Shown one piece after another: positions 238-17,505 of a stretch of DNA of 36,394 bases. The DNA is taken from the NCBI GenBank assembly GCA_014730255.1, contig WJIQ01000194.1:1-36394 (forward strand). The letters are read 5' to 3'. Under the pieces are notes generated by a model. That model saw only the letters and a program-made list of their open reading frames with translations. It was not told where the DNA came from and did no database searches. The first letter of the stretch is position 1. Every line of letters begins with the position of its first letter. This DNA comes from a bacterium. GTDB taxonomy: Bacteria; Krumholzibacteriota; Krumholzibacteriia; LZORAL124-64-63. The translations under genes and the position numbers were made by a program.

Positions 238-3219
<2,982 letters not shown>

Positions 3220-3619: not shown

Positions 3620-5233
3620 CTAGCCTTTCCGATCCTCGCTGGTCTCGGGGTCCGGCTCGTCCGCGTCCGCGGCCGCATCCTCATCCTCGTCCTCGTCCTC
3701 GTCCTCGACCTCGACCTCGACCTGGGGAGCCTCCGCGGCCTCGTCCTGATCCGCGACCGCCTCGCCCTCCGGGCTCGCGTCCTCGTCGTCGGTCGACCCG
3801 GCGTCCTCGCCACCCTCGTCCGACACGGCGCGGTCGAAGTTGCTGAACGGGTCGGCCACCGCGGCGGCCGCGGCGGTCTTCGCCTCGTCGCCGGCGGTCT
3901 CGCCGTCGAGCAGACTCTCGTCCAGCAGGCCCTCGCCGAGGTCCCGGTTGAGCTCGGCCTGCACCGTCTCCTCGACGACGCGCTCGAGCTCCTCGAGCGT
4001 GGCCTGCGCGGTGGACTGCAGCTCGGCGGCCTTCTCCGCGCCCACGCCCTCGAGGCCGGCGAGGGCCTCCATGTCGACCCGCGCCAGGGCGCTGATGGAC
4101 TCGATCCCGACATCCTGCAGGGTGGCGACCAGCGCCTCGTCCATGCCGGACATCTCCGAGAGCGTCATCGAGACCTCCTCGGCCACGCGCTGGCGGATGC
4201 CGTATTCGCGCGCGGAGATGAGGTCGATCTTCCAGCTGGTCAGCTTGGCGGCCAGGCGGACGTTCTTGCCCTCCTTGCCGATGGCCTTGGAGAGCTGGTC
4301 CTCGGTCACGACCACCGTGGCCTCGCCCCGGTCCTCGTCGAGCAGCACCTGGCTGACCTCGGCCGGGCTCAGGGCGCGACTGATCAGCTGGATCGGGTCC
4401 GGGCTCCAGAGCACGATGTCCACGCGCTCGCCCTTGAGCTCGTGGGTGACCGCCTGCACGCGGCTACCCTTCATGCCGACGCAGGATCCGATGGGGTCGA
4501 CACGCTCGTCGCGGCTGACCACGGCGATCTTCGAGCGCGTACCGGGCTCGCGCGCGACGGCCTTGATCTCGACGATGCCCTCCTGGATCTCGGGCACCTC
4601 CTGGGCGAACAGCGCCTTGAGGAACTCGGGATGGCTGCGCGAGAGGATGATCTGCGGGCCCTTGGCGTTGTCGAGCACCTCGATGATGAAGGCGCGCACG
4701 GCGCTACCCTGTCGCAGCGGCTCGGTGCGGATCTGCTCGCGCAGCGGCAGCAGCGCCTCGACCCGGCCGAGGTTGACCAGGGCGTTGCCCCGCTCGAGCT
4801 GCTGCACCTTGCCCTCGATGATCGTGTTGACCCGGTCCTTGTACTCCTCGAAGATCTGCGAGCGCTCGGCCTCGCGGACCTTCTGCACCAGGATCTGCTT
4901 GGCCACCAGGATGGCGTTGCGGCCGAAGTCCTGCAACGGCAGCTCCCAGCGCACCTCGTCGCCCACCTCGACCTCGTCGCCGAACTCGATCTGGGCCTCC
5001 TCGAGGCTGATCTCGAGGTCCTCGTCGTCGATGCTCTCGACCACGGTCTTGACCTGCTCGACCAGCATCTCGCCGGTCTCGGGGTTGACCGTCGCGGCGA
5101 TGTTGGTCTCGGCTCCGAGCTTCTTCTTGGCGGCCGACTGCAGGCCGGCCTCCAGCGACTCGATGATGATCGACTGGTCGAGGTGCTTCTCGCGGGTGAT
5201 GGCCTGCAGCGCCTGGATCACGTTGTGGTCCAT
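3620..5233 (-). CDS. nusA: Transcription termination/antitermination factor NusA
   Basis: S1/KH NusA architecture; EPGTRSKIAVVSRDERVDPIGSCVGMKGSRVQAVTHELKGERVDIVLWSPDP; C-terminal HhH region and acidic tail. Confidence 0.98.
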   Translation of the reverse strand: MDHNVIQALQAITREKHLDQSIIIESLEAGLQSAAKKKLGAETNIAATVNPETGEMLVEQVKTVVESIDDEDLEISLEEAQIEFGDEVEVGDEVRWELPLQDFGRNAILVAKQILVQKVREAERSQIFEEYKDRVNTIIEGKVQQLERGNALVNLGRVEALLPLREQIRTEPLRQGSAVRAFIIEVLDNAKGPQIILSRSHPEFLKALFAQEVPEIQEGIVEIKAVAREPGTRSKIAVVSRDERVDPIGSCVGMKGSRVQAVTHELKGERVDIVLWSPDPIQLISRALSPAEVSQVLLDEDRGEATVVVTEDQLSKAIGKEGKNVRLAAKLTSWKIDLISAREYGIRQRVAEEVSMTLSEMSGMDEALVATLQDVGIESISALARVDMEALAGLEGVGAEKAAELQSTAQATLEELERVVEETVQAELNRDLGEGLLDESLLDGETAGDEAKTAAAAAVADPFSNFDRAVSDEGGEDAGSTDDEDASPEGEAVADQDEAAEAPQVEVEVEDEDEDEDEDAAADADEPDPETSEDRKG

Positions 5234-5240
5234 GATTCGG

Positions 5241-5900
5241 TTACCCGTCCCTCTCGTCGGTCTTCGCTGGCCCGGCGTCCTTCTTCTTCGGACGCGAGCG
5301 CTTGCCGCCGCGGCGCTCGGCGCGCCTGGCGCGGCGATCCTCCTTGCGCCGGCGGCGGTCCTCCCGGATCACGGCCTGCGCATCGAAATCATGGTCGAGG
5401 TTGGCCTCGAGCACGTCGGCGACCGGCAACGTCACCGGTGCCGGACGGTCGTCGGGGTCGGCATCGCGCGGGGCGACCGGCGCGATGGTCAACAACCCGT
5501 CCTCGACGGTCTCCAGGCGGCCCCTCAGGTTCACCGGACGACCCGCGTCGCTCTCGCCGCGCCACTTCAGTTCCACGTCCCGGCCGACGACGGCCGCGAA
5601 GTGAGCCTCGGTGCGCAGCGGGCGGCGGATCCCGGGCGACGACACCTCGAGCACCCAGGCCCCCGGAAAGAGGTCGGCCTCCTCCAGGTGCATGCTCGCC
5701 GTGCGTGAGGCCTCGGCGCAGCCGTCGAGATCGATCCTTCGATCCCCGGGCAAGTCCACGTACAACCGCACCTGCAGGCGTCCTCCGCCACGGAACAGGC
5801 GCACGTCGATGAGGTCCCAGCCCTCGGCGGCCAGTTCGGGCGCCAAGAGGGCGTGGACGCGCGCGGCGAGCGCGTATCGGTCCACATTCTCCGGCGTCAC
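5241..5900 (-). CDS. rimP: Ribosome maturation factor RimP
   Basis: GWDLIDVRLFRGGGRLQVRLYVDLPGDRRIDLDGCAEASRTASMHLEEADLFPGAWVLEVSSPGIRRPLRTEAHF. GTG start at 5898-5900 with GAGGAG SD; the longer ORF start at 6011 overlaps the promoter and is unlikely. Confidence 0.93.
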   Translation of the reverse strand: MTPENVDRYALAARVHALLAPELAAEGWDLIDVRLFRGGGRLQVRLYVDLPGDRRIDLDGCAEASRTASMHLEEADLFPGAWVLEVSSPGIRRPLRTEAHFAAVVGRDVELKWRGESDAGRPVNLRGRLETVEDGLLTIAPVAPRDADPDDRPAPVTLPVADVLEANLDHDFDAQAVIREDRRRRKEDRRARRAERRGGKRSRPKKKDAGPAKTDERDG

Positions 5901-5924
5901 GAGCGGCTCCTCACAGCACGAAAA

Positions 5925-5946
5925 GAAGTGGACTTGCGCCCACTTC
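5925..5946 (-). terminator. Intrinsic-terminator-like hairpin (attenuator candidate) in the rimP-nusA-infB leader
   Basis: Minus strand: GAAGTGG-gcgcaagt-CCACTTC followed immediately by TTTT (5921-5924); 7-bp perfect stem upstream of the rimP start. Confidence 0.6.
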
Positions 5947-5982
5947 CGGTTCACCCCGGATTCGGGTCTAGGATGCAATGGC

Positions 5983-6011
5983 AATATAGACCACGCCCCG
6001 ACAGGGGGCAA
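5983..6011 (-). promoter_or_regulatory. Candidate sigma70-type promoter for rimP-nusA-infB
   Basis: Minus strand TTGCCC (6006-6011) - 17 nt - TATATT (5983-5988). The spacer/-35 region contains an inverted repeat GCCCC-N4-GGGGC. Confidence 0.6.
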
Positions 6012-6056: not shown

Positions 6057-7007
6057 TCAGAATCCGGGCATCCGGTCGTAGACCAGCGAGACCACGAGCC
6101 GGCCGACCTGCTCGAGCGCGGCCGGGTCGCACTGCTCGGGCGTGTCCTCGACGGTGTGCCACTGCGGGTAGTCGAAGTCGATCAGGTTGACCGCCGGCAA
6201 CCCGGCCTCCAGGAACGGCACGTGGTCGTCGTAGACCGGCGTGGCGGGGCGCGCCTCGAACGCCGACAGCCCGAGCTGCATGGCGCGATCGAAGACCGCC
6301 AGCGTGAGTTCCGGCGCGAACCGGCTGGAGTAGGCCTCCATGCCGATGGAGAGGCCGCGTTTGCCGACCATGTCCAGCAGGACCAGCGCGCGCGGATCGC
6401 CAGCGGCCAGGGGACTGGAGAAATCCTGCCAGGTCGACGCGAGGTGGCGGCTGCCCAGGCAGAATCCGTCCGGATCGCCCGCCGGGCCGGAATCCTCGCC
6501 ATCGAAGAACAGCAGGTCGACGCCACGCTCGGGCGGAGACTCGGCCAGCAGTTCCATGAGGTGCAGCAGGACGGCCACGCCGCTCGCGCCGTCGTTCGCC
6601 CCGAGGATCGGCTGGTCGCGGTTGGCCGGGTCGGGGTCCCTGTCCGCGATCGGGCGCGTGTCGTAGTGCGCGCCGAGCCACAGCCGCGCCCCATCGGTCG
6701 GGACCGTCGAGACGATCAGGTTGCAGATCTCCAGCGGCTGGCCCGACAGGGGATCGCTGGCCTCGAAGCACACGCGCTGGCACCTCAGCCCGAGATCGGC
6801 CGCATGCCGCTCGATCATCTGCCGCAGCTCCTCCAGCGCGGCCGAGCCGGGCGGACGCGGCCCCAGATCGCACTGCGCGTGCAGCCACTCCATCGCACGC
6901 TCGCCGGAGAACCTCTCCGGCGCCATCTCGGCGGCGGCCACGGTGGGCACGAGCGCGAGCATCAGGATCGTCGCGGCCCGGCGGCCGCCACGGCGATCAG
7001 AAGACAA
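6057..7007 (-). CDS. M28-family metallopeptidase fold protein, glutaminyl-peptide cyclotransferase (QC)-type
   Basis: Signal peptide; GAHYDTRP, GANDGASGVAVLLHL, LLFFDGEDSG...CLGSRHLAS, VYDDHVPFLEAGLPAVNLIDFDYPQWHTVEDTP, which follow animal/bacterial QC motifs FFDGEE, GSRHLA, DDHIPFL and WHT. TTG start overlaps the sprA stop. Confidence 0.85.
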   Translation of the reverse strand: MSSDRRGGRRAATILMLALVPTVAAAEMAPERFSGERAMEWLHAQCDLGPRPPGSAALEELRQMIERHAADLGLRCQRVCFEASDPLSGQPLEICNLIVSTVPTDGARLWLGAHYDTRPIADRDPDPANRDQPILGANDGASGVAVLLHLMELLAESPPERGVDLLFFDGEDSGPAGDPDGFCLGSRHLASTWQDFSSPLAAGDPRALVLLDMVGKRGLSIGMEAYSSRFAPELTLAVFDRAMQLGLSAFEARPATPVYDDHVPFLEAGLPAVNLIDFDYPQWHTVEDTPEQCDPAALEQVGRLVVSLVYDRMPGF

Positions 7008-10000
7008 ACTCGGCCTCCAGTCCCAGCCCGATGGTCGTGGTGACGACGTCGGTGCCGATGTTCTTGTTCCGCGAGAAGTTCACGCTGAACGCCCCGCTCA
7101 GGTTGCGGGAGATATTGTAGCTGAAGCGCGGCTGGAACGAGATGGTGTTCGTCCCGGTGGGCTCCGGCTCGAACTGCGAGTTCGGCGATTCGCGCAGCTG
7201 AGAGCTCTCGGAGTAGCTCAGGTCGACGGTCATGTCGATGCTCGGCTGGTTGCCGGGGCGGTACAGCCCCAGCTGGGCCAGGAACCGCTGGGCGCTGATC
7301 TGGTGCTTGAGCTGGACGCCGACGCGGAAGCGGTCCGACGTGGTGAGCACGCCGCTCGCGCTCTGCGTCTCCTTGGACCAGTTGCCGTTCAGGTTCAGCG
7401 ACATGCCGCTGTGGAAGGTCATGTTCCACTGCGGACTGATGTTGGTCGACCGGCGCGGGTCGTGCGTCGAGCGCGTGAAGTTCAGGACGTCCTTGGTGTA
7501 CTTGTATGAGAGGGTCAGCGTCGAGGTCTGGAACCAGCCGGCGTCGCGGTCGTCGGGATCGCCGCCGAACAGGCCCCAGTCCTCGATGCCGGCGACGTTG
7601 AGCTTGGCGTCCGGCCAGGTCTGGCTGTAGGACCAGGTCTCCTGCTCGTTGGCGATGCGATGGCTCTCGCGCAGGGCGTACTTCACGTCGAGCTTGATGT
7701 CGCGCGAGACCCGCGTCGCCGTGGAGATCGACAGGTCCTGGCTCGCCTCGCGACGCAGGACGTCGTACGAGGTGTCCGGGAAATCCGGTGTCATGTCGAA
7801 TCCGAAGCGGTAGGCCAGCGGCACCTCCTGCCCCACGAGCCGGCCGTAGCCGCTGCTGCGCTGATCGGAGTAGTTGATCTTCACCGGATCGAGTTCGCGC
7901 AGCATCTCGAACAGCGGCTCGACGAGGTCGCGCGCGGAGAACCCGCCGCCGGCCGACGGCCCGTCCTCGCCGCTGCGCCGCCGCTCCTCCTCCAGCCGCA
8001 GTTCGGCCTGCTCGAGCAGCCACTCCTCCTTGGCCTCCTGCTGCTGGTCGGGCGTCATGTCTTCCCAGCCGGGAATCTGGCCGGGGTCGAACTGGCCCTC
8101 GACATCGCCCCGGGCCTGCTGCATGAGCCGCTCCTGCTCGGCGATGAGCGCCGCCTGCTCGTCGCCGGTGCGGCGCCGCTCGGGGATGACCGCGTCGAAG
8201 ACATCACCCAGCGGAAGACTGCCGCCGACGCGCCAGGATGCCGAGTTGCCCACGCTCTTGAGGTCGGGCGGATCGCCGGGCTGCAGCCGTCCGGGGTCGT
8301 GCTGGTCGGTGAAGCTGCCGTCGAACTGGATGTCCGGCCGGAGCTTCTGGTTCGCCGTGCGCACCAGCCAGCGCAGCGGGGCGTAGATCTTCGCCTCGGG
8401 CATCTCGGTGGCCTTGGGCAGCGTGATGTTGACCCGCAGCGACTGCTGGTACTCGTTCTCCTCGCCGATGTTGATGCCGGCGACCTCCTTGCGGCGCAGG
8501 AGGTCCCGGGAGCTGCGGTTGGAGAAGTCGGTCGACAGGAAGGTCAGCGGCCGGAACTCGACGCGGCTCGAGAGCGTGCCCGGGCGCGTCTCGGTCTCGG
8601 TCGCCGGGAACTCGTTGCCCTGGGTGTCGCGCCGCCGCGACTTGCGGTAATTGCTCGTGAAGCTCGCCGAGCCCTCGATGTGGCTCGGCAGGTAGGCCAG
8701 GCCGCTCACCAGCGGGATCGACCCGAGCACGGGGATGTCGCCGAGGCGGTGGTCGCCGCGGATGTTCACGTTGTACGACAGCGAACCCTGCAGGGTGCTC
8801 GCGTCGCTGGTCTCGGTCGGCGAGTCGCGGCTGGTGGTGCTGCCGTTGACGGACAGGTTCCACGGATCGATCAGGAACCGCGAGATCGGGTTGCGGCTCG
8901 GCCGGTGGCTGAGGCGGAGCGAGTAGGTGTTGCGGTCCTCGATGCTCGAGAGCTGGTTGCGGCGGTCCTCGTCGAAGATCTCCACGTCGCTGTTGATCTC
9001 GTACTTGGGCCGGCTCGAGGACATCCGCCGGCTGAAGCTGAGCGGCAGGTTGAAACCGAAGAGGGGAATGTAGTCGTCGAGGCGGAAGTTGGTCGACACC
9101 CCCCAGTCCTCGGTCACCGCCCCCTGGCCGGTCTCCTGGTTGAGGCCATGGAACTCCGCGTCGCGGCGATCCCAGTCGAAGTCGACCTTCAAGGCGTCGG
9201 CCAGGTTCAGGCTCAGGCCGATGCTCTCGGCCACGCCGATGTCGCGCTTGGCCCCCTCGAGCACGATGTCGTTGAGCCAGACCTGGCCCGTGATGTCACG
9301 CCGCGTGCGGTTGGCCACTCCCAGGTAGTAGCGCAGCACGCGCCTCAGATCCGGGCGGCCGACGATGCGCACGTCGTAGGTCAGGCCGTCCTTGAGGTCG
9401 GCGATCTCGCCGTGGATCACCCCGTCCTCGTCCGGCTCGTTGTTCTTGATGCTCGTCAGCTCCGAGAGTTCGATGTCCACCTTCCGCCAGTCGATGCGGT
9501 TGGGCATGTCGATGAAGCGGGTGCTGATCTCGTAGTAGTTGAGCGAGTCGGCGCCCACGCGCATGAACACGTCGAGGTCGGCCGCATCGCTGTTGCTGGC
9601 CTTCCAGTACCAGGACATGCGGTTGTAGCGGGTGTAGTCGTCACCCTGGGCCGAGACCTGCTTGGTGATGCGCACCAGGTGCTCGGGCCGCAGCTGGTTG
9701 ACGTCGAGCACCAGCGAGGTCTCCTTCTCCGGGATCCCGTTCTCCTCGCGCACCGGGAACGGCGGGTGGTAGAGGGGGTTGTCCTTGTTGTTGACCTCGC
9801 CGATGAAGAACGACTCCGGCGGCGGCGCCTCGATCTGCGAGAGGATCTGCTCGGAGCCGACCTTGCGGATGCCCTCCCGTTCCCAGCGCGAGCCGAGGAA
9901 CGACAGCTCCGACAGCTGCAGCTCGACGGTGTCCGCCTCGGGCGCGTCGTCCTCGTACCAGATGCGCACGTGACGGATCGTGCTCAGGTCCGGCGGCGCG

Positions 10001-13000
10001 GACGTATCGGTCACCTCGAGGGCGTCGGTCAGGCGGATGCGGTACTTGCGCCAGGACGTGCCGCCGAGGTCCTCGTCGGGGTAATCGCGCGCCACGTCGA
10101 CCAGCGGCTCGGTGTCCTTCAGATCGATGGTGATCGAGAAGAACCGATTCTCCTGGTCGAAGCGCGTGTTGCCGTCGATGTCCTCGGAATCCTCGTTGTT
10201 GTTGCCGCGGGTGTTGTTGATCCCCGGATAGGGGTCGCGCGGATCGGAGAGCGAGCCCTCGTCGGCGCTGTACTCGACGCCCTCCCGCACGACGTCCTGC
10301 CCGCGCACCCAGGCGTCTAGGCCGACGTCCTCGGTCGACTGGTTGAAGACCTGGTCGCGATTGAGGTCCTCGAGCTGCCAGGTGTCGTAGATCCGATCGC
10401 CGGCGCCGGTGGTGTCGGGCCAGGCGAAATCCTCGTCGATGATGCCGAAATCGATGTGCAGGACGCCGCGTCGCGCCTGGGGATTCGGCTCGTCGTCGTT
10501 GATCCAGAGCTCGAGGAACTGCGACTTGCTCAGGTCGATGCCCGTGGCGCTCAGGCCGCGCATGATGCCGCCCCAGTTGCCGGACTCCCAGCCGCCGACC
10601 TCGGTATGGCGCATGAAGAGGTTCAGCGTCGGCTGGGTCTCGCCGCGCTCCTGGCCCTCGAGTTCGGGATTGAGGTACCGCCGCTGGACCCGGTTCTCGG
10701 GCAGGAACCAGCGGATGTCGTCGACCCGCCGGGTGACGTCGAACAGCCTCGGATCGCCCGGGAAGACCCCCTCGGCGCCGTGCACCGGCCGGCTGGCCGG
10801 GTACCAGCCGAGCCGCGACAGCGTGATCAGGTCGCTGCTCTCGGCACCCTCGAAGTCCTCGACGTAGACCTTGTCCTTGGTGTTGGGATCGGGCACCGAG
10901 ACAGCCGCCTCGCCCCGGAACTGCAAGGTGCTCTCGCGCTCGCGGCGGCCGAGGGTGAAGACGTTGGCGATGTCGGTCAGCATCTGCGAGCGCAGCGTGT
11001 GGCTCAGGTTCACGTTGCCGACCAGGGTCTTGCTCGGCTCCTCGCCGAGCTTGGCCTTGTCGCCGACGATCTTGTTGCTCTCGTACAGCCACGTCGTGGA
11101 CAGCTTGCTCTCCGGCCCGAGATCGTAGGCCACGTTGAAGCCCAGCAGGCTGCTCTGGCCGCCCCCGAAGAAGGGCGCGTACTGGTAGGTCACCTGGATG
11201 TTGCTGTCGGCGGTGAGCTCGGCCGCACGCTCGCCCTTGATGGAGATCTCGCCGAAGAGGTAGTCGATGTCGTAGTCGACGCCGCGCTCGAGGGTCTTGC
11301 CGTCGAGGGTGACCGTCTCCGAGCCCTCCTCGATGTTGCTGGCGCCGAGGTTGATCGTGCCGCTGACCGCCGCGTGGCTCGGGATCAGGCGGAACTTGCC
11401 GTACTGGCTGTAGTTCTGCGGCAGCGTCTGCCAGTCGTAGATCTCCGGCGCCAGGTTCTCCTCCAGGCGCGTGCCGTCCCACTCCCACTGGTAGCCCCCG
11501 CCCTCGGGGCTCGCGCGCAGGGCGTTCTGCTGGTACCAGTCCTCGGCCTCGGCGAAGGGAAAGGGCACGTCGATGGGGAACTTCAGCAGGCCGTTGGCCG
11601 TGTCGAACAGCACCGTGCGGTGCTTGTCGACCAGTCCGTCGGCCCCCTCGAGGCCCTGCTCGTTCTCGACGTCGAGGCCGAACACGTTCATGTACGTGTA
11701 GCCGGAATCGTCGTGCTGGCCGGGCTGGTCCACCGGCGCGGTCGTCTCGATCACCATCTCGAAGCTCTGGGGATCGATGTTCGAGCCGCCGAGCGGATAG
11801 ATGTTGCGCAGCACGTACTGGAACGTGAAGCGCTCGGTCCGTTCGGGCTTGAGCAGCTTCATCCGGTAGTAGGGCTGACCGTCGATCACCAGACCGGGCT
11901 CGGCGTCGTCCTCGGGCTGATCGCCGACCTCGTAGAGGACCTCGCGGGACACCGGATCGATCACGTCGTAGGTGACGGCCAGGATGTCGCTGTCGAGCAT
12001 CTCCCGGCCGAGGTCGATGGCCACCAGGTCGCCGCCCACCAGCTCGAGGCTGGTGAAGTCCAGCGGGCGCCACACCCAGGCGTGGTTCCAGTTGGTGAGG
12101 TCGGCCGAGAGGTCGGCGACGTGCGCCGGGTCCCAGATGCCGGTGGTGTCGATGGCGGCGGCGACGTACTGGATGTCGCCGGTCTGCGGCGTGATGCCGC
12201 CCATGTTCTGGTACACGCGGATGCTGTTGCGATCGATGATCGCGCTGGCGGTGCTGCGGCCGGGGACGTCCGGGAACTCGTAACCGACCTCGGTATGGTC
12301 CAGGCCGTAAAAGTTCTGGGGCAGATCGAGGCGGAAGAAGCGGTTGTTCAGGTAATCGGACGCCAGCACGGGATGGTCGGTCTGCTGGCCGCCGCTGGAG
12401 TTGAACGACTTGCTGTCCGACTCGGCCTTCTGCTTCGAGGCCACGACCGTGAACGCGGCCGGGCCGAGCTGGCCGGTGACCTTGATGCCGAACAGGCCCG
12501 ACTGGTTGGAGTTGTAGCCAAGGAGCTGGCCGCCCGGCAGGGTCAGGCCCACGTCGCCGGTCTCGATGCTCTGGATGATCTCGTCCTCGTCGCCGCGGTA
12601 GGCCAGGCGGATCTTGGTCGCCTCCGGCCCGATGGCCTCGCTGTCGTGCTCGACCTCCAGGAAGATCTTCTCGCCGATCTGGCCGTCGAGCTTGACCTGC
12701 AGCTGCTGCTCCATGGTCAGGTCGGGGAACCAGCTCTGGCTCTGCACCTGCTCGCTGGCGACGAAGTTGTTCGACCGCGTGGTCTCGCCGCGGATGGCGA
12801 TGCGCTCGCGGCCGGAGATGCGGATCTGCGTCTTCTCGCCGCGGCCGATGATCGACTCGAGCGTGCGGGGCAGCTTGATCGGGATGGTGAAGTTGATGAG
12901 CCCCTCGTCGTCCATGCTGCGGCCGCCACCGGCGACGTCCAGCTGATCCTCGACCTTCAGCCGGCTCTGGACCTGCCAGTTGCGCGCCAGGGCCGCGTCG

Positions 13001-13551
13001 ACGTCGTCGACGAAGACCTCGACCTCCGGGGCGTCGACCGGCCGCGGCGGGTAATAGGTGAACCCGTCCGGCAAGGTGCGCGAGGACGGGAACAAGAAGA
13101 ACCACTCGGGGTATCGGAATCGGGTGTAGAGTCCGGAGAAGCCGTTGGCCTCGACGACCTCGGTCTCGTCGTCGAGCTCGACGTTCATCCGCGACTCGAT
13201 CAGGTGACGCGCGGCGGTCGCGAACGTGGGCCGCTGCGCGCGGCGATGAGGATCGACCCCCTGACGCAGCAACCGTTCCCGCAGGATCATCCGCTCGACC
13301 CCCAGCAGCCGGGGGTCCCGCGTGGTACGCACGAAAGGATCGAGCCCGTAGAGGATCGGCGTGTCGTCGTTCGTGTCGTCGGCGGCGCCGACGAGCTGGT
13401 CGACCGCCGGCTGGGCCACGGCCACGGCGACCGGGTCGGGCGCGGCCAGGACAACGAGCGCGAGGCAGACCGCCACCGACGCGGCGGCCGGCGGCCCACC
13501 GGGTCGGCCCCGGCGCCGGGCCGGGCGTCTGGCGATCGCGCGCGTGGTCAA
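6997..13551 (-). CDS. sprA: SprA/Sov-like giant outer-membrane beta-barrel (type IX secretion translocon family)
   Basis: 2184 aa; signal peptide; GEKIFLEVEHDSEA, IRLAYRGDEDEIIQSIETGDVGLTLPGGQLLGYNSNQSGLFGIKVTGQLGPAAFTVVASKQKAESDSKSF; GKVYVEDFEGAES-like DKVYVEDFEGAESSD; C-terminal beta strand ending in Phe (GLGLEAEFVF). TTG start. Confidence 0.9.
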   Translation of the reverse strand: MTTRAIARRPARRRGRPGGPPAAASVAVCLALVVLAAPDPVAVAVAQPAVDQLVGAADDTNDDTPILYGLDPFVRTTRDPRLLGVERMILRERLLRQGVDPHRRAQRPTFATAARHLIESRMNVELDDETEVVEANGFSGLYTRFRYPEWFFLFPSSRTLPDGFTYYPPRPVDAPEVEVFVDDVDAALARNWQVQSRLKVEDQLDVAGGGRSMDDEGLINFTIPIKLPRTLESIIGRGEKTQIRISGRERIAIRGETTRSNNFVASEQVQSQSWFPDLTMEQQLQVKLDGQIGEKIFLEVEHDSEAIGPEATKIRLAYRGDEDEIIQSIETGDVGLTLPGGQLLGYNSNQSGLFGIKVTGQLGPAAFTVVASKQKAESDSKSFNSSGGQQTDHPVLASDYLNNRFFRLDLPQNFYGLDHTEVGYEFPDVPGRSTASAIIDRNSIRVYQNMGGITPQTGDIQYVAAAIDTTGIWDPAHVADLSADLTNWNHAWVWRPLDFTSLELVGGDLVAIDLGREMLDSDILAVTYDVIDPVSREVLYEVGDQPEDDAEPGLVIDGQPYYRMKLLKPERTERFTFQYVLRNIYPLGGSNIDPQSFEMVIETTAPVDQPGQHDDSGYTYMNVFGLDVENEQGLEGADGLVDKHRTVLFDTANGLLKFPIDVPFPFAEAEDWYQQNALRASPEGGGYQWEWDGTRLEENLAPEIYDWQTLPQNYSQYGKFRLIPSHAAVSGTINLGASNIEEGSETVTLDGKTLERGVDYDIDYLFGEISIKGERAAELTADSNIQVTYQYAPFFGGGQSSLLGFNVAYDLGPESKLSTTWLYESNKIVGDKAKLGEEPSKTLVGNVNLSHTLRSQMLTDIANVFTLGRRERESTLQFRGEAAVSVPDPNTKDKVYVEDFEGAESSDLITLSRLGWYPASRPVHGAEGVFPGDPRLFDVTRRVDDIRWFLPENRVQRRYLNPELEGQERGETQPTLNLFMRHTEVGGWESGNWGGIMRGLSATGIDLSKSQFLELWINDDEPNPQARRGVLHIDFGIIDEDFAWPDTTGAGDRIYDTWQLEDLNRDQVFNQSTEDVGLDAWVRGQDVVREGVEYSADEGSLSDPRDPYPGINNTRGNNNEDSEDIDGNTRFDQENRFFSITIDLKDTEPLVDVARDYPDEDLGGTSWRKYRIRLTDALEVTDTSAPPDLSTIRHVRIWYEDDAPEADTVELQLSELSFLGSRWEREGIRKVGSEQILSQIEAPPPESFFIGEVNNKDNPLYHPPFPVREENGIPEKETSLVLDVNQLRPEHLVRITKQVSAQGDDYTRYNRMSWYWKASNSDAADLDVFMRVGADSLNYYEISTRFIDMPNRIDWRKVDIELSELTSIKNNEPDEDGVIHGEIADLKDGLTYDVRIVGRPDLRRVLRYYLGVANRTRRDITGQVWLNDIVLEGAKRDIGVAESIGLSLNLADALKVDFDWDRRDAEFHGLNQETGQGAVTEDWGVSTNFRLDDYIPLFGFNLPLSFSRRMSSSRPKYEINSDVEIFDEDRRNQLSSIEDRNTYSLRLSHRPSRNPISRFLIDPWNLSVNGSTTSRDSPTETSDASTLQGSLSYNVNIRGDHRLGDIPVLGSIPLVSGLAYLPSHIEGSASFTSNYRKSRRRDTQGNEFPATETETRPGTLSSRVEFRPLTFLSTDFSNRSSRDLLRRKEVAGINIGEENEYQQSLRVNITLPKATEMPEAKIYAPLRWLVRTANQKLRPDIQFDGSFTDQHDPGRLQPGDPPDLKSVGNSASWRVGGSLPLGDVFDAVIPERRRTGDEQAALIAEQERLMQQARGDVEGQFDPGQIPGWEDMTPDQQQEAKEEWLLEQAELRLEEERRRSGEDGPSAGGGFSARDLVEPLFEMLRELDPVKINYSDQRSSGYGRLVGQEVPLAYRFGFDMTPDFPDTSYDVLRREASQDLSISTATRVSRDIKLDVKYALRESHRIANEQETWSYSQTWPDAKLNVAGIEDWGLFGGDPDDRDAGWFQTSTLTLSYKYTKDVLNFTRSTHDPRRSTNISPQWNMTFHSGMSLNLNGNWSKETQSASGVLTTSDRFRVGVQLKHQISAQRFLAQLGLYRPGNQPSIDMTVDLSYSESSQLRESPNSQFEPEPTGTNTISFQPRFSYNISRNLSGAFSVNFSRNKNIGTDVVTTTIGLGLEAEFVF

Positions 13552-13782: not shown

Positions 13783-15183
13783 ATGGATTCGCGGATGCGG
13801 TTGCTGGACAGGCACTTGCTGCGAGCGGCGGTGGGGCCCTTCTTCTTCGGCCTGTTCACCATCACCTTTCTGCTCATGATCGATGTCCTGTACCGGTACG
13901 TCGACATGTTCGTCAGCAAGGGCGTGCCGTTCCTGGTGGCCACCAAGGTCCTGATCCTGAGCCTGGGCTTCACGCTTGCATTATCCGTTCCAATGTCGGT
14001 GCTCATCGCGGTGCTCATGGCCGTGGGCCAACTCGCTGGCGACAATGAAATTACAGCGATGAAAGCGAGCGGGGTGAGCCTCTGGTCGGTGCTGCGGCCG
14101 CTGCTGCTGGGCGCCACCCTGATCGGCGGCGGGCTGGTGGCGTTCAATCACTACGTCTACCCCGAGAGCAACCACACGCTCGTCAACCTGCTCTACGACA
14201 TCCGGCGCTCGCGGCCGATGCTCGACATCCGCGAACAGATGTTCACCGACCTGGGCAACGGCACCACCATCTACGTCGCCACCAAGGACGATCAGACCGG
14301 GCGCATCGCCGACGTCTCGATCATCGAGAAGGACCGCGACGACGGCCTGGGGCCGCGGATGACGACCGCCGAATGGGGCCGGATCGTCACCGACGAGCGC
14401 TCGAACACCATGCTGCTGGAGCTGCACGACGGCGAGATCCACGACATGCCCGATCCCGAGCAGCCCGAGAAGTACCAGGTCACCCGCTTCCGGCGGCACG
14501 ACCTGCGCATGGAGGACATGGGCCGGGAGATGGGCAAGACCGACCGCAAGACCCGCGGCGACCGGGAGATGAACCTCCACGACCTGCGGCAGGCGGCCCG
14601 GCGGCAGCTCGACCGGCGGGTCGAGACCCACCAGCACGTGGAGAACCTCCACGCCGGCGTGATCCACTGGCAGACCGACCTGCTGGATCCGGAGCAGCGC
14701 CGCGCCCAGCTGCGCGACGAGCCGGGCAACGCCGCCGAGCGCCGCTCGCGCCTGACCGCCACCCGGCGCAAGATCGACCACGCCGCGAACCAGTCCCGGG
14801 CGCAGGCGACGGTGGTCGAATCGCACCTGCGGCGGGCCAACAAGTACCTGGTCGAGTACCACAAGAAGCTGGCGATCCCCTTCGCCTGCCTGGTCTTCAC
14901 CCTCATCGGCGTGCCCATGGCCGTGACCACCAGCCGCAGCGGCAAGAGCGTGTCGATCTCCCTCGCGCTGGGGGTCTTCCTGCTCTACTACCTGTGCCTG
15001 GTCGGCGGGGAGAAGATGTCCGACCGGGGCCTGCTCGCCCCCTGGATCTCCATGTGGTCGGGCAACCTGCTGCTGCTGGTGATCGGCATCCCCCTGTTCC
15101 TGCGCAGCATCCGCGAGACGTCCTACCTGTCCCTGCGCTGGCCGCGGCCGGTGCGGCGGCTGCTGCGGATGGCCCCCGCATGA
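13783..15183 (+). CDS. lptF: LPS export ABC transporter permease LptF (YjgP/YjgQ family)
   Basis: RLLDRHLLRAAVGPFFFGLFTITFLLMIDVLYRYVDMFVSKGVP...LALSVPMSVLIAVLMAVGQLAGDNEITAMKASGVS; C-terminal EYHKKLAIPFACLVFTLIGVPMAV. Start may be 13783 or 13795. Confidence 0.92.
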   Translation: MDSRMRLLDRHLLRAAVGPFFFGLFTITFLLMIDVLYRYVDMFVSKGVPFLVATKVLILSLGFTLALSVPMSVLIAVLMAVGQLAGDNEITAMKASGVSLWSVLRPLLLGATLIGGGLVAFNHYVYPESNHTLVNLLYDIRRSRPMLDIREQMFTDLGNGTTIYVATKDDQTGRIADVSIIEKDRDDGLGPRMTTAEWGRIVTDERSNTMLLELHDGEIHDMPDPEQPEKYQVTRFRRHDLRMEDMGREMGKTDRKTRGDREMNLHDLRQAARRQLDRRVETHQHVENLHAGVIHWQTDLLDPEQRRAQLRDEPGNAAERRSRLTATRRKIDHAANQSRAQATVVESHLRRANKYLVEYHKKLAIPFACLVFTLIGVPMAVTTSRSGKSVSISLALGVFLLYYLCLVGGEKMSDRGLLAPWISMWSGNLLLLVIGIPLFLRSIRETSYLSLRWPRPVRRLLRMAPA

Positions 15184-16253
15184 GGATCCACGAGCGTCTG
15201 ATCCTCGGCACGTTCCTGCGTTACCTGATGCAGACGCTCGTCGGCGCCATCGTCCTGTTCACCCTGGTCGACCTCTTCGACCATCTCGGCAACCTCCTGG
15301 ACAACCACGCGACCCTGATGCAGACGGTCCGCTACTACGTCTACAAGGGGCCGTGGATCATCGATCAGGTCCTGCCCATCGCCACGTTGATGGCCACCCT
15401 CTTCACCGTCGGCACCATGGCACGGTACCTGGAACTCGGGGCCCTGTTCGCGAGCGGGCTATCGCTCGCGCGCATCGGTCGGCCCCTGCTGGTGGCCGGC
15501 CTCGTGCTCACCCTCTTCGCGCTGGGCTGGCGCGAATACGTCCTGCCGGAGGCCAACGTGCGCAAGTGGCGGGTCTGGGAGGTGGAGATCCACGACCAGA
15601 GCGAGACCCTGCGACCGACGCGCAAGATCGCCGTCACCGGCCCCGACGGGCGGCTCTACTACGCCGAGAAGTACGACCCCAACCGGCAGGAGATCTCCGG
15701 CCTGCGCGTCCTGTCGCGGCAGGACGCCGAGGTCCAGGAGCGGATCGACGCCGCGCGCGCGGAGTGGGACGGCTCGTGCTGGATCCTGCACGACGGTACG
15801 CACCGGGCGTTCACCGACCAGGGCGAGCGGTTGACCCGTTTCGACGTGCGCCGTGCGTCCGACCTGTCGATCACGCCCGACGGCCTCTATCACACGCGCG
15901 TCCGGCAGGAGAACATGAACATCCGCCAGCTCCTGCGGCACCGGGACCTCGTCCGGCAGATCGGCGGCGATCCCACCGGCATCGACGTGGACATCCAGTT
16001 CCAGCTGGCCTTCCCGCTGGTGAATCTGATCGTCGTGGCCCTCGGGCTGGTCCTGGCCTCCGGGCCGCGCAAGACCACCATCGCCAGCGGCTTCGGGCTG
16101 ACCCTGCTGATCGGGTTCGGCTACTACCTGCTGATGATGTTCGGGCGTTCGCTGGGCCACAGCGGCCTGTTGCCGCCCGTCGTGGCCGGCTGGGCGGGCA
16201 ACGGCCTCTACGCGCTGATGACGTGGGCGCTGTGGGCCCACGCGCGGCGCTGA
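15180..16253 (+). CDS. lptG: LPS export ABC transporter permease LptG (YjgP/YjgQ family)
   Basis: ATGA overlap with lptF; LILGTFLRYLMQTLVGAIVLFTLVDLFDHLGNLLD...LPIATLMATLFTVGTMARYLELGALFASGLSLARIGRPLLV. Confidence 0.9.
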   Translation: MRIHERLILGTFLRYLMQTLVGAIVLFTLVDLFDHLGNLLDNHATLMQTVRYYVYKGPWIIDQVLPIATLMATLFTVGTMARYLELGALFASGLSLARIGRPLLVAGLVLTLFALGWREYVLPEANVRKWRVWEVEIHDQSETLRPTRKIAVTGPDGRLYYAEKYDPNRQEISGLRVLSRQDAEVQERIDAARAEWDGSCWILHDGTHRAFTDQGERLTRFDVRRASDLSITPDGLYHTRVRQENMNIRQLLRHRDLVRQIGGDPTGIDVDIQFQLAFPLVNLIVVALGLVLASGPRKTTIASGFGLTLLIGFGYYLLMMFGRSLGHSGLLPPVVAGWAGNGLYALMTWALWAHARR

Positions 16254-16407: not shown

Positions 16408-17505
16408 ATGAGAAGATTAGTCGGCATCCTGTTCGTGGTCACCCTGGTCGTCGGCCTGTTCGCGGGCTGCGGCGAGGACGCCGCCAAGCCGAAGATCACG
16501 CAGTTGCACGCCAGCGAGAGCTGCGGCGTCGCCCCCCTGCGGGTCGACTTCCGCGGCGACGCGACCGCCGGCGAACCCCTCGACGACCCGACCGGCGCCA
16601 ACAACTGGCTGGAGTTCACGTGGGACTTCGGCGACGGCACGGTCATCGAGGGCGGCACCTCCGTCGCGTACCACGAGTACCTCGAGCCGGGCATGTACGT
16701 CGTGACCCTGACCGCCGAGGACAACAACGGCGACCGCGCCTCGCGGAGCGAGACCATCGAGGTCCGCGCCGACAGCCTGACCATCGACGCGTACGTCCTG
16801 CTCAACGACGAGCCGGTGACCGAGGTGCCGACCTGCGCGCCGCTGGACATGGGCGTGACGGCCGAGTCCTGCGACTTCGACCCCGTGGTCGACAGCTACG
16901 AGCGCTTCACCTTCCGCTGGTCGGTGGCCGACACCGTCTACACCGCGCCGTTCTCCCGGCACTTCTTCGGCAGCGAGGACGTCGGCGAGCAGACAGTGGG
17001 CCTGCTGCTGGAGGACCCCGCCCGCTCGATCACCCGCCGCGACTCGGTGAGCGTGTCCGTGGTCGAGAGCGAGGGCGCCGACCTGTCGCTCGACGCCGAC
17101 TGGCTGCTCTCGCCGCAGGGCACCGAGGACGTCGTCCTGATGCGCGACGTGCCGTCGTTCAGCGACACCCTGACCTACACGATCCGCCTGGCCAACGACG
17201 GGCCCGACCAGGCCTACCAGGTCGAGGTCGTCGGCGAGGTCGACGACAACAACCGCCTTTTCTTCCACGAGGCGAACGCCTCGCACGGGTCGTTCGTGTT
17301 CGTCGAGGACGACGACCAGTGGACGTGGTTCGTCGAGGCCCTGCCCGCCGGCGACGTCGCCACCCTGGACGTGACGATCTTCCTGGAGCAGGGCAACGCC
17401 GGCAACCGGTACTTCTTCCCGGCGGCCATCACGCCGTACGACTGCGACCCGGACGACGACGACCTCGAGGTCGAACCGATCCTCGAGCTGGTCACCGTGC
17501 CCTGA
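16408..17505 (+). CDS. PKD-domain lipoprotein with DUF11-like C-terminal domain
   Basis: Lipobox LFAGC in MRRLVGILFVVTLVVGLFAGCGED; PKD motif FTWDFGDGTVIEGGTSVAYHEYLEPGMYVVTLTAED; C-terminal LTYTIRLANDGPDQAYQVEVVGEV. SD ggag upstream of the ATG. Confidence 0.8.
   Translation: MRRLVGILFVVTLVVGLFAGCGEDAAKPKITQLHASESCGVAPLRVDFRGDATAGEPLDDPTGANNWLEFTWDFGDGTVIEGGTSVAYHEYLEPGMYVVTLTAEDNNGDRASRSETIEVRADSLTIDAYVLLNDEPVTEVPTCAPLDMGVTAESCDFDPVVDSYERFTFRWSVADTVYTAPFSRHFFGSEDVGEQTVGLLLEDPARSITRRDSVSVSVVESEGADLSLDADWLLSPQGTEDVVLMRDVPSFSDTLTYTIRLANDGPDQAYQVEVVGEVDDNNRLFFHEANASHGSFVFVEDDDQWTWFVEALPAGDVATLDVTIFLEQGNAGNRYFFPAAITPYDCDPDDDDLEVEPILELVTVP

Follow-up and report, generated by a model that had tools for sequence, protein, structure and literature searches.

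The window analysed here, i.e. the whole stretch of DNA under study, is a 36 kb contig (G000:C32) within a 4.18 Mb draft genome from the phylum Krumholzibacteriota. Its minus strand carries, in this order, sprA, a gene of family M28 for a predicted glutaminyl cyclase (QC), rimP, nusA, a small L7Ae/YlxQ-like gene and infB, while the divergent genes lptF and lptG occupy the plus strand (Table 1). The coordinates of the open reading frames and the 11-nt overlap between sprA and the M28 gene, as given in the initial annotation, are both correct, although the true sprA start may lie at 13476 rather than at 13551. Downstream of lptG, positions 16408-17505 (plus strand) encode a lipoprotein-like protein with no NCBIfam match, whose place is kept by homologues in related genomes. 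A search of the window against Rfam gave no match.

Table 1. Features of the sprA-QC locus, with their positions in the window and the basis of each assignment.
Feature	Position	Strand	Basis
sprA (SprA/Sov)	6997..13551	-	TIGR04189 513 bits (cut-off 200); PF14349 52.9 bits; phmmer to PDB 6h3i 1.4e-36
Predicted type II (animal-type) QC, M28 fold, 316 aa	6057..7007	-	PF04389 113 bits; PDB QC matches; fold; motifs
Shine-Dalgarno GGAGG of the QC gene, within sprA codons CTG-GAG-GCC	7014..7018	-	read directly in the sequence
Start codon TTG of the QC gene, from sprA codons TTT-GTC (Phe-Val)	7005..7007	-	codon comparison across the family
rimP, likely start ~5900	5241..6011	-	PF02576; next downstream of the QC gene
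nusA	3620..5233	-	TIGR01953 400 bits
infB (IF-2)	238..3219	-	TIGR00487 759 bits
lptF, divergent from sprA	13795..15183	+	PF03739; TIGR04407 223.7 bits, just below cut-off 230
lptG	15180..16253	+	PF03739; TIGR04408 201 bits, below cut-off 240

The reading of the first gene as SprA/Sov holds up against the profile, whose cut-off is exceeded more than twofold. The protein is full-length and matches the solved SprA of F. johnsoniae (6h3i) in several stretches with phmmer, and a SprA orthologue is found in 80 of the 80 Krumholzibacteriota genomes. The same holds for PorV-family proteins (80/80) and for type IX C-terminal domains (80/80, often at least 62 per genome), and the genome of the window also encodes a PorU-type sortase that scores above cut-off (425.6 bits), so the type IX set of SprA/Sov, PorV, PorU-type sortase and C-terminal targeting domains is present. 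In this it resembles the type IX secretion system (T9SS) of F. johnsoniae and P. gingivalis, with the difference that the SprA profile score is lower here than in Bacteroidetes genomes. PorV-family and PorU-type sortase genes adjoin on the same strand in Krumholzibacteriota (G074:C1:2490238-2494701 and similar places). It should be noted that the models for GldM (TIGR03517, PF12081) and GldN (PF19841) gave no usable match in any of the chosen genomes, Bacteroidetes MAGs included. SprA and a PorU-type sortase occur without a GldM or GldN match in Krumholzibacteriota, Marinimicrobia and Calditrichota, as judged with models that lacked a positive control; possibly, the type IX-like system of these genomes uses another motor or none.

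The M28 protein is a predicted type II QC, in line with the QC-type M28 gene of the initial annotation, and profile, sequence, motifs and modelled fold agree in this. An N-terminal signal peptide is recognizable, with cleavage predicted between MSSDRRGGRRAATILMLALVPTVAAA and E. The best PDB sequence matches are 7d1b (1.7e-44), 3gux and the P. gingivalis QC (PgQC, 6qql/7cje), all above 130 bits. The closest of them, 7d1b, is the QC of Fimbriiglobus ruber, which differs in its planctomycete source; the seven planctomycete QC loci among the matches listed are unlinked to sprA. The AlphaFold (AF2) model has a pLDDT of 95.5, and its top 50 fold matches in the PDB are all QCs or their structural-genomics homologues, with PgQC first (6qql, E 7.2e-30, TM 0.90; 7d1b, E 1.5e-28). 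An alignment of 24 orthologues shows a conserved HxD..P motif and the NDG, DGED, LLDMVG, DDH and WHT motifs, the last five invariant or nearly so, and these contain the zinc ligands Asp, Asp (the bacteroidal one) and His, the catalytic Glu and the second Asp (roles according to PMC7948796). Three features have been described as separating bacteroidal QCs from aminopeptidases, namely Asp-Gly at the first zinc ligand, Glu-Asp, whose Asp is the bacteroidal zinc ligand, and a Trp before the zinc His (PMC7948796). The M28 protein carries all three, and the Trp (PgW298) is found in 24 of 24 orthologues; for PgF294, the Phe four residues ahead of the zinc His, the loop length differs, and Phe/Tyr are at -5/-3.

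Family M28 includes aminopeptidases as well, and several QC-like PDB entries were originally annotated as such, so the protein could in principle be a zinc aminopeptidase with exported proteins or peptides as the substrates that it trims. Old peptidase titles are still found on four of the top 13 fold entries, but for these a reannotation has been proposed, or they are denoted QC (PMC7948796). The best aminopeptidase in the PDB reaches only 32 bits against 155 for the best QC, the fold matches are QCs throughout, and the active-site hallmarks are those of bacteroidal QCs; we thus reject the aminopeptidase identity on sequence, motifs and fold, and regard it as very improbable.

A close QC orthologue is present in 71 of the 80 genomes of the phylum, and in at least 57 of these 71 (hand tally) it is adjacent to sprA, adjacency being defined as a QC match on the same contig and strand that follows the last match to the SprA profile by no more than 2.3 kb. 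Apart from the three genomes named next, the two genes of the remaining QC-bearing genomes lie on different contigs or are not comparable. Two genomes of family f2 (L068:10956-15477 and L069:7831-12313) have two genes between sprA and QC, all in the same run, which from their predicted proteins we read as carA and carB. The sole clearly unlinked genome of the phylum is G075, where the sprA matches fall in two distant pieces, which may point to a break in the single-contig assembly or in the gene. Twenty loci that were inspected, three of them with wrong-strand gene calls, mostly show the order LptG-LptF<>SprA-QC-RimP-NusA-IF2. The rimP-nusA-infB genes are often absent directly downstream in family-f1 loci outside the genus of the window, and the divergent Lpt genes are conserved at Krumholzibacteriota, KSB1 and Eisenbacteria loci.

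Concerning the junction itself, the QC gene starts with TTG (7007-7005) and shares its first 11 nt with sprA, whose stop codon is included, and the GGAGG motif (7018-7014) lies 6 nt upstream of the TTG. Chance does not account for this overlap. A start codon at exactly -11 is found in 30 of the 32 loci of the window's family, and nearly all 32 share a sprA 3' end of the form GGx-xTG-GAG-xxx-xxx-TTT-GTx-TTC-stop, with the GGAG context conserved. The third-last sprA codon, which together with the following G supplies the TTG, is TTT in 28 of the 30 cases in which it encodes Phe, compared with 93 of 590 (16%) Phe codons upstream in SprA (binomial p 1.1e-20, the loci being treated as independent though they are related), and the last Phe codon of sprA is TTC in 31 of the 32 loci. 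Two further loci have replaced the Phe by Tyr, with TAT-GTA giving an ATG at the same -11 spot, and no start codon arises at this spot in the two loci that read TTC-ACx, for which the chosen start is an ATG 11-16 nt past the sprA stop. In many genomes of the family TTT is used for none of the other 13-20 SprA Phe residues, and therefore descent alone explains the TTT at -11 poorly. Apparently, the -11 start of the QC gene is under codon-level selection in the window's family. When 83 linked loci were scored with a heuristic choice of start, 44 starts overlapped sprA and 26 lay within 30 nt.

This comparison of codons agrees with the proposal of the initial annotation that the two genes are tightly coupled, and the pair is conserved and probably translationally coupled. 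The mechanism that we propose is as follows. The product of sprA would be the channel by which a type IX-like secretion system crosses the outer membrane, and the QC, periplasmic or membrane-anchored, would convert the N-terminal Gln of exported proteins cleaved by signal peptidase into pyroglutamate, as expected from its family membership. Ribosomes finishing sprA would meet the internal Shine-Dalgarno motif and start codon and then begin the QC gene, in which case QC output would follow SprA output, as the sequence conservation suggests. Since the internal start and the rare TTT look kept by selection, expression appears tuned. In lineages that follow the Q-rule, the linkage would most likely fit the capping capacity to the envelope and secretion load. 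We consider it reasonably likely that the locus is a coupled unit for secretion and capping of this kind, present in Krumholzibacteriota in a reduced form.

The linkage had been suspected to occur in a lineage outside Bacteroidota, which is the case, the host being one of the Krumholzibacteriota, and a survey of sprA neighbourhoods finds the adjacency kept within this phylum and across several others. Named genomes were scanned with the QC alignment and the best 80 loci, picked by similarity to the Krumholzibacteriota QC, were grouped into phyla according to their record titles. SprA lies directly upstream of QC in 44 of 75 informative loci among the matches listed, and among these matches the linked loci include 22/22 in Marinimicrobia, 5/5 in Zixibacteria, 3/3 in KSB1, 4/6 in Calditrichota, 2/2 in Eisenbacteria and 1/4 of those titled Bacteroidetes or Bacteroidota; no linkage is seen among the matches listed from Poribacteria (0/7) and Planctomycetes (0/7). 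That the adjacency is not conserved is thereby ruled out, and chance adjacency across so many lineages is not plausible. Both genes are present but unlinked in Bacteroidetes/Bacteroidota, Fibrobacteria, Kryptonia, Ignavibacteria(e) and Calditrichota genomes. As several unlinked genomes have SprA elsewhere, the linkage is lineage-bound, and the coexistence of unlinked SprA and QC in several phyla means that neither function needs it. On a quick QC tree, which has many weak deep branches, linkage is strongly clustered, with 14 changes of state against a shuffled mean of 29.5.

This distribution also bears on another explanation, in which an ancestral sprA-QC neighbourhood beside rimP-nusA-infB is merely inherited. 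The tight spacing would then reflect operon compaction in general, and secretion and pyroglutamate would have nothing to do with each other functionally. It would fit the way in which the linked state tracks phylum groups on the QC tree and the separate occurrence of sprA and QC in other phyla; the Lpt and RimP-NusA-IF2 genes on either side share the conservation though functionally unrelated, and +1 Gln is weak in Krumholzibacteriota (see below). It does not account well for an internal start that keeps a rare TTT, for the retention of the pair in several phyla despite different neighbours, or for family f2, where QC remains in the same run despite the carAB insertion. We judge such a purely historical linkage to be unlikely, though it deserves to be kept in mind beside the coupled unit.

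If the coupled unit serves a Q-rule, Gln should be frequent at position +1 of exported proteins. This frequency was estimated with a simple signal-peptide finder in two variants, on 200-400 kb sampled per genome rather than on whole proteomes. With variant 1, +1 Gln was found in 6/14 predictions for Prevotella, 7/20 for a Bacteroidetes MAG, 8/28 for a Marinimicrobia genome, 2/14 for Poribacteria and 1/26 for E. coli, and in 6/44, 5/36 and 5/35 for three Krumholzibacteriota genomes, the last of them without M28 QC. Variant 2 gave 4/19, 8/25, 7/38, 2/18 and 1/29 for the former, and 5/46, 4/51 and 5/49 for the latter in the same order. The Prevotella control thus falls from 43% to 21% between variants, so the absolute values are unreliable, yet the variants agree in order: with this crude predictor, +1 Gln ranges over 21-43% in the Bacteroidota controls, 18-29% in Marinimicrobia, 8-14% in Krumholzibacteriota and 3-4% in E. 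coli. Pooled loci under variant 2 gave 20/70 for Marinimicrobia (p 2.5e-13), 4/11 for KSB1, 2/8 for Zixibacteria, 2/8 for Calditrichota and 0/21 for Planctomycetes, which indicates that the enrichment reaches phyla beyond Bacteroidota, clearly in Marinimicrobia and, on small samples, in KSB1, Calditrichota and Zixibacteria.

In Krumholzibacteriota the expected enrichment is only weakly present: +1 Gln exceeds the internal background of 2-3% (p about 0.002-0.03), but it is weak and stays below the Q-rule controls. This is a mild excess and not a Q-rule, most signal peptidase I substrates having no Gln at +1. With about a tenth of the exported proteins carrying +1 Gln, only a minority of them would be QC substrates in this phylum.

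These substrates would not be SprA or the type IX cargo in general. The initial annotation had suggested that QC could cap SprA itself or its clients, which finds no support in this lineage. For most SprA proteins of the window's family the predicted cleavage falls between Ala and Asp, leaving Asp first, which rules out a general capping of SprA in this family; in the window's own SprA the site is ambiguous, before VAQPAV or before QPAV. Predicted type IX cargo, picked by a home-made C-terminal-domain profile and small in number, has +1 Gln in 0 of 9 cases in the same-genus genome G042 and in 1 of 10 in G014, whereas the Bacteroidetes control has 5 of 6; on this rarity we reject type IX cargo as the target for G042 and G014. 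The weak +1 Gln in Krumholzibacteriota, equally frequent in a genome without M28 QC, the type IX cargo that rarely begins with Gln and the unlinked pairs elsewhere all count against the model of a coupled unit, as do the P. gingivalis experiments cited below (PMC5837995).

The same data speak to a narrower role, in which QC would be a dedicated maturation enzyme whose targets are partners of SprA or a small number of type IX components or substrates, and not the exported proteins at large. QC is linked to sprA rather than to a signal peptidase, all genomes of the phylum have type IX C-terminal domains together with PorV-family proteins, and the SprA of several other Krumholzibacteriota families seems to begin with Gln (L074, L077, L078, L080 and L081). 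The mostly Asp-first SprA of the window's family and the G042 cargo argue against it, as do experiments in P. gingivalis, which disfavour a role of pyroglutamate in sorting (PMC5837995), and we find a dedicated type IX enzyme improbable.

An indication of what the M28 gene does comes from the unrelated beta-propeller (type I) QC, PF05096, which scores strongly in 12 Krumholzibacteriota genomes, eight of which have both QC types. Among genomes at least 90% complete, a split chosen after the first PF05096 results were seen, it occurs in 3 of 4 without M28 QC and in 4 of 42 with it (Fisher p 0.009; p 0.025 over all genomes, kinship being ignored in both). A type I QC where the M28 QC is missing is only suggestive of the M28 gene supplying the QC function. 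In G003 and G079 (loci L070 and L081) the M28 gene is gone, sprA is followed directly by rimP, and a PF05096 QC lies elsewhere in the genome. The Krumholzibacteriota genome without M28 QC that was sampled for +1 Gln, equal in this respect to the others, has a type I QC.

Compared with the Q-rule pathway of Bacteroidetes, known from PgQC (PG_2157) of P. gingivalis (PMC5837995, PMC10653852, PMC7948796), the system described here shares the enzyme family, the active-site hallmarks and a signal peptide. The lipoprotein signal of PgQC is frequent also in the QCs of other phyla, and +1 Gln is clearly enriched in Marinimicrobia, one of the linked phyla. It differs in that the QC lies outside Bacteroidota and is coupled to sprA, the two being unlinked in three Bacteroidetes MAGs that have both, and in that +1 Gln is only weakly enriched in Krumholzibacteriota. 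Bochtler et al. remarked that bacteria with type IX secretion are also those with the Q-rule and called this coincidence "striking", but a mechanistic link was then set aside (PMC5837995). We found no report of the sprA-QC linkage in the open-access literature, which leaves out most subscription papers. One may speculate, quite tentatively, that the translational coupling between QC and the type IX translocon dates far back in the wider FCB group, where it would join N-terminal pyroglutamate capping to secretion across the outer membrane, and that the co-occurrence of T9SS and Q-rule in Bacteroidota is a remnant of a once-linked module. The sprA-QC pair, found across phyla with an internal start that appears to be selected, is genetic evidence that T9SS and Q-rule were tied in many lineages, and it offers a testable, gene-level handle on the connection between type IX secretion and the Q-rule.
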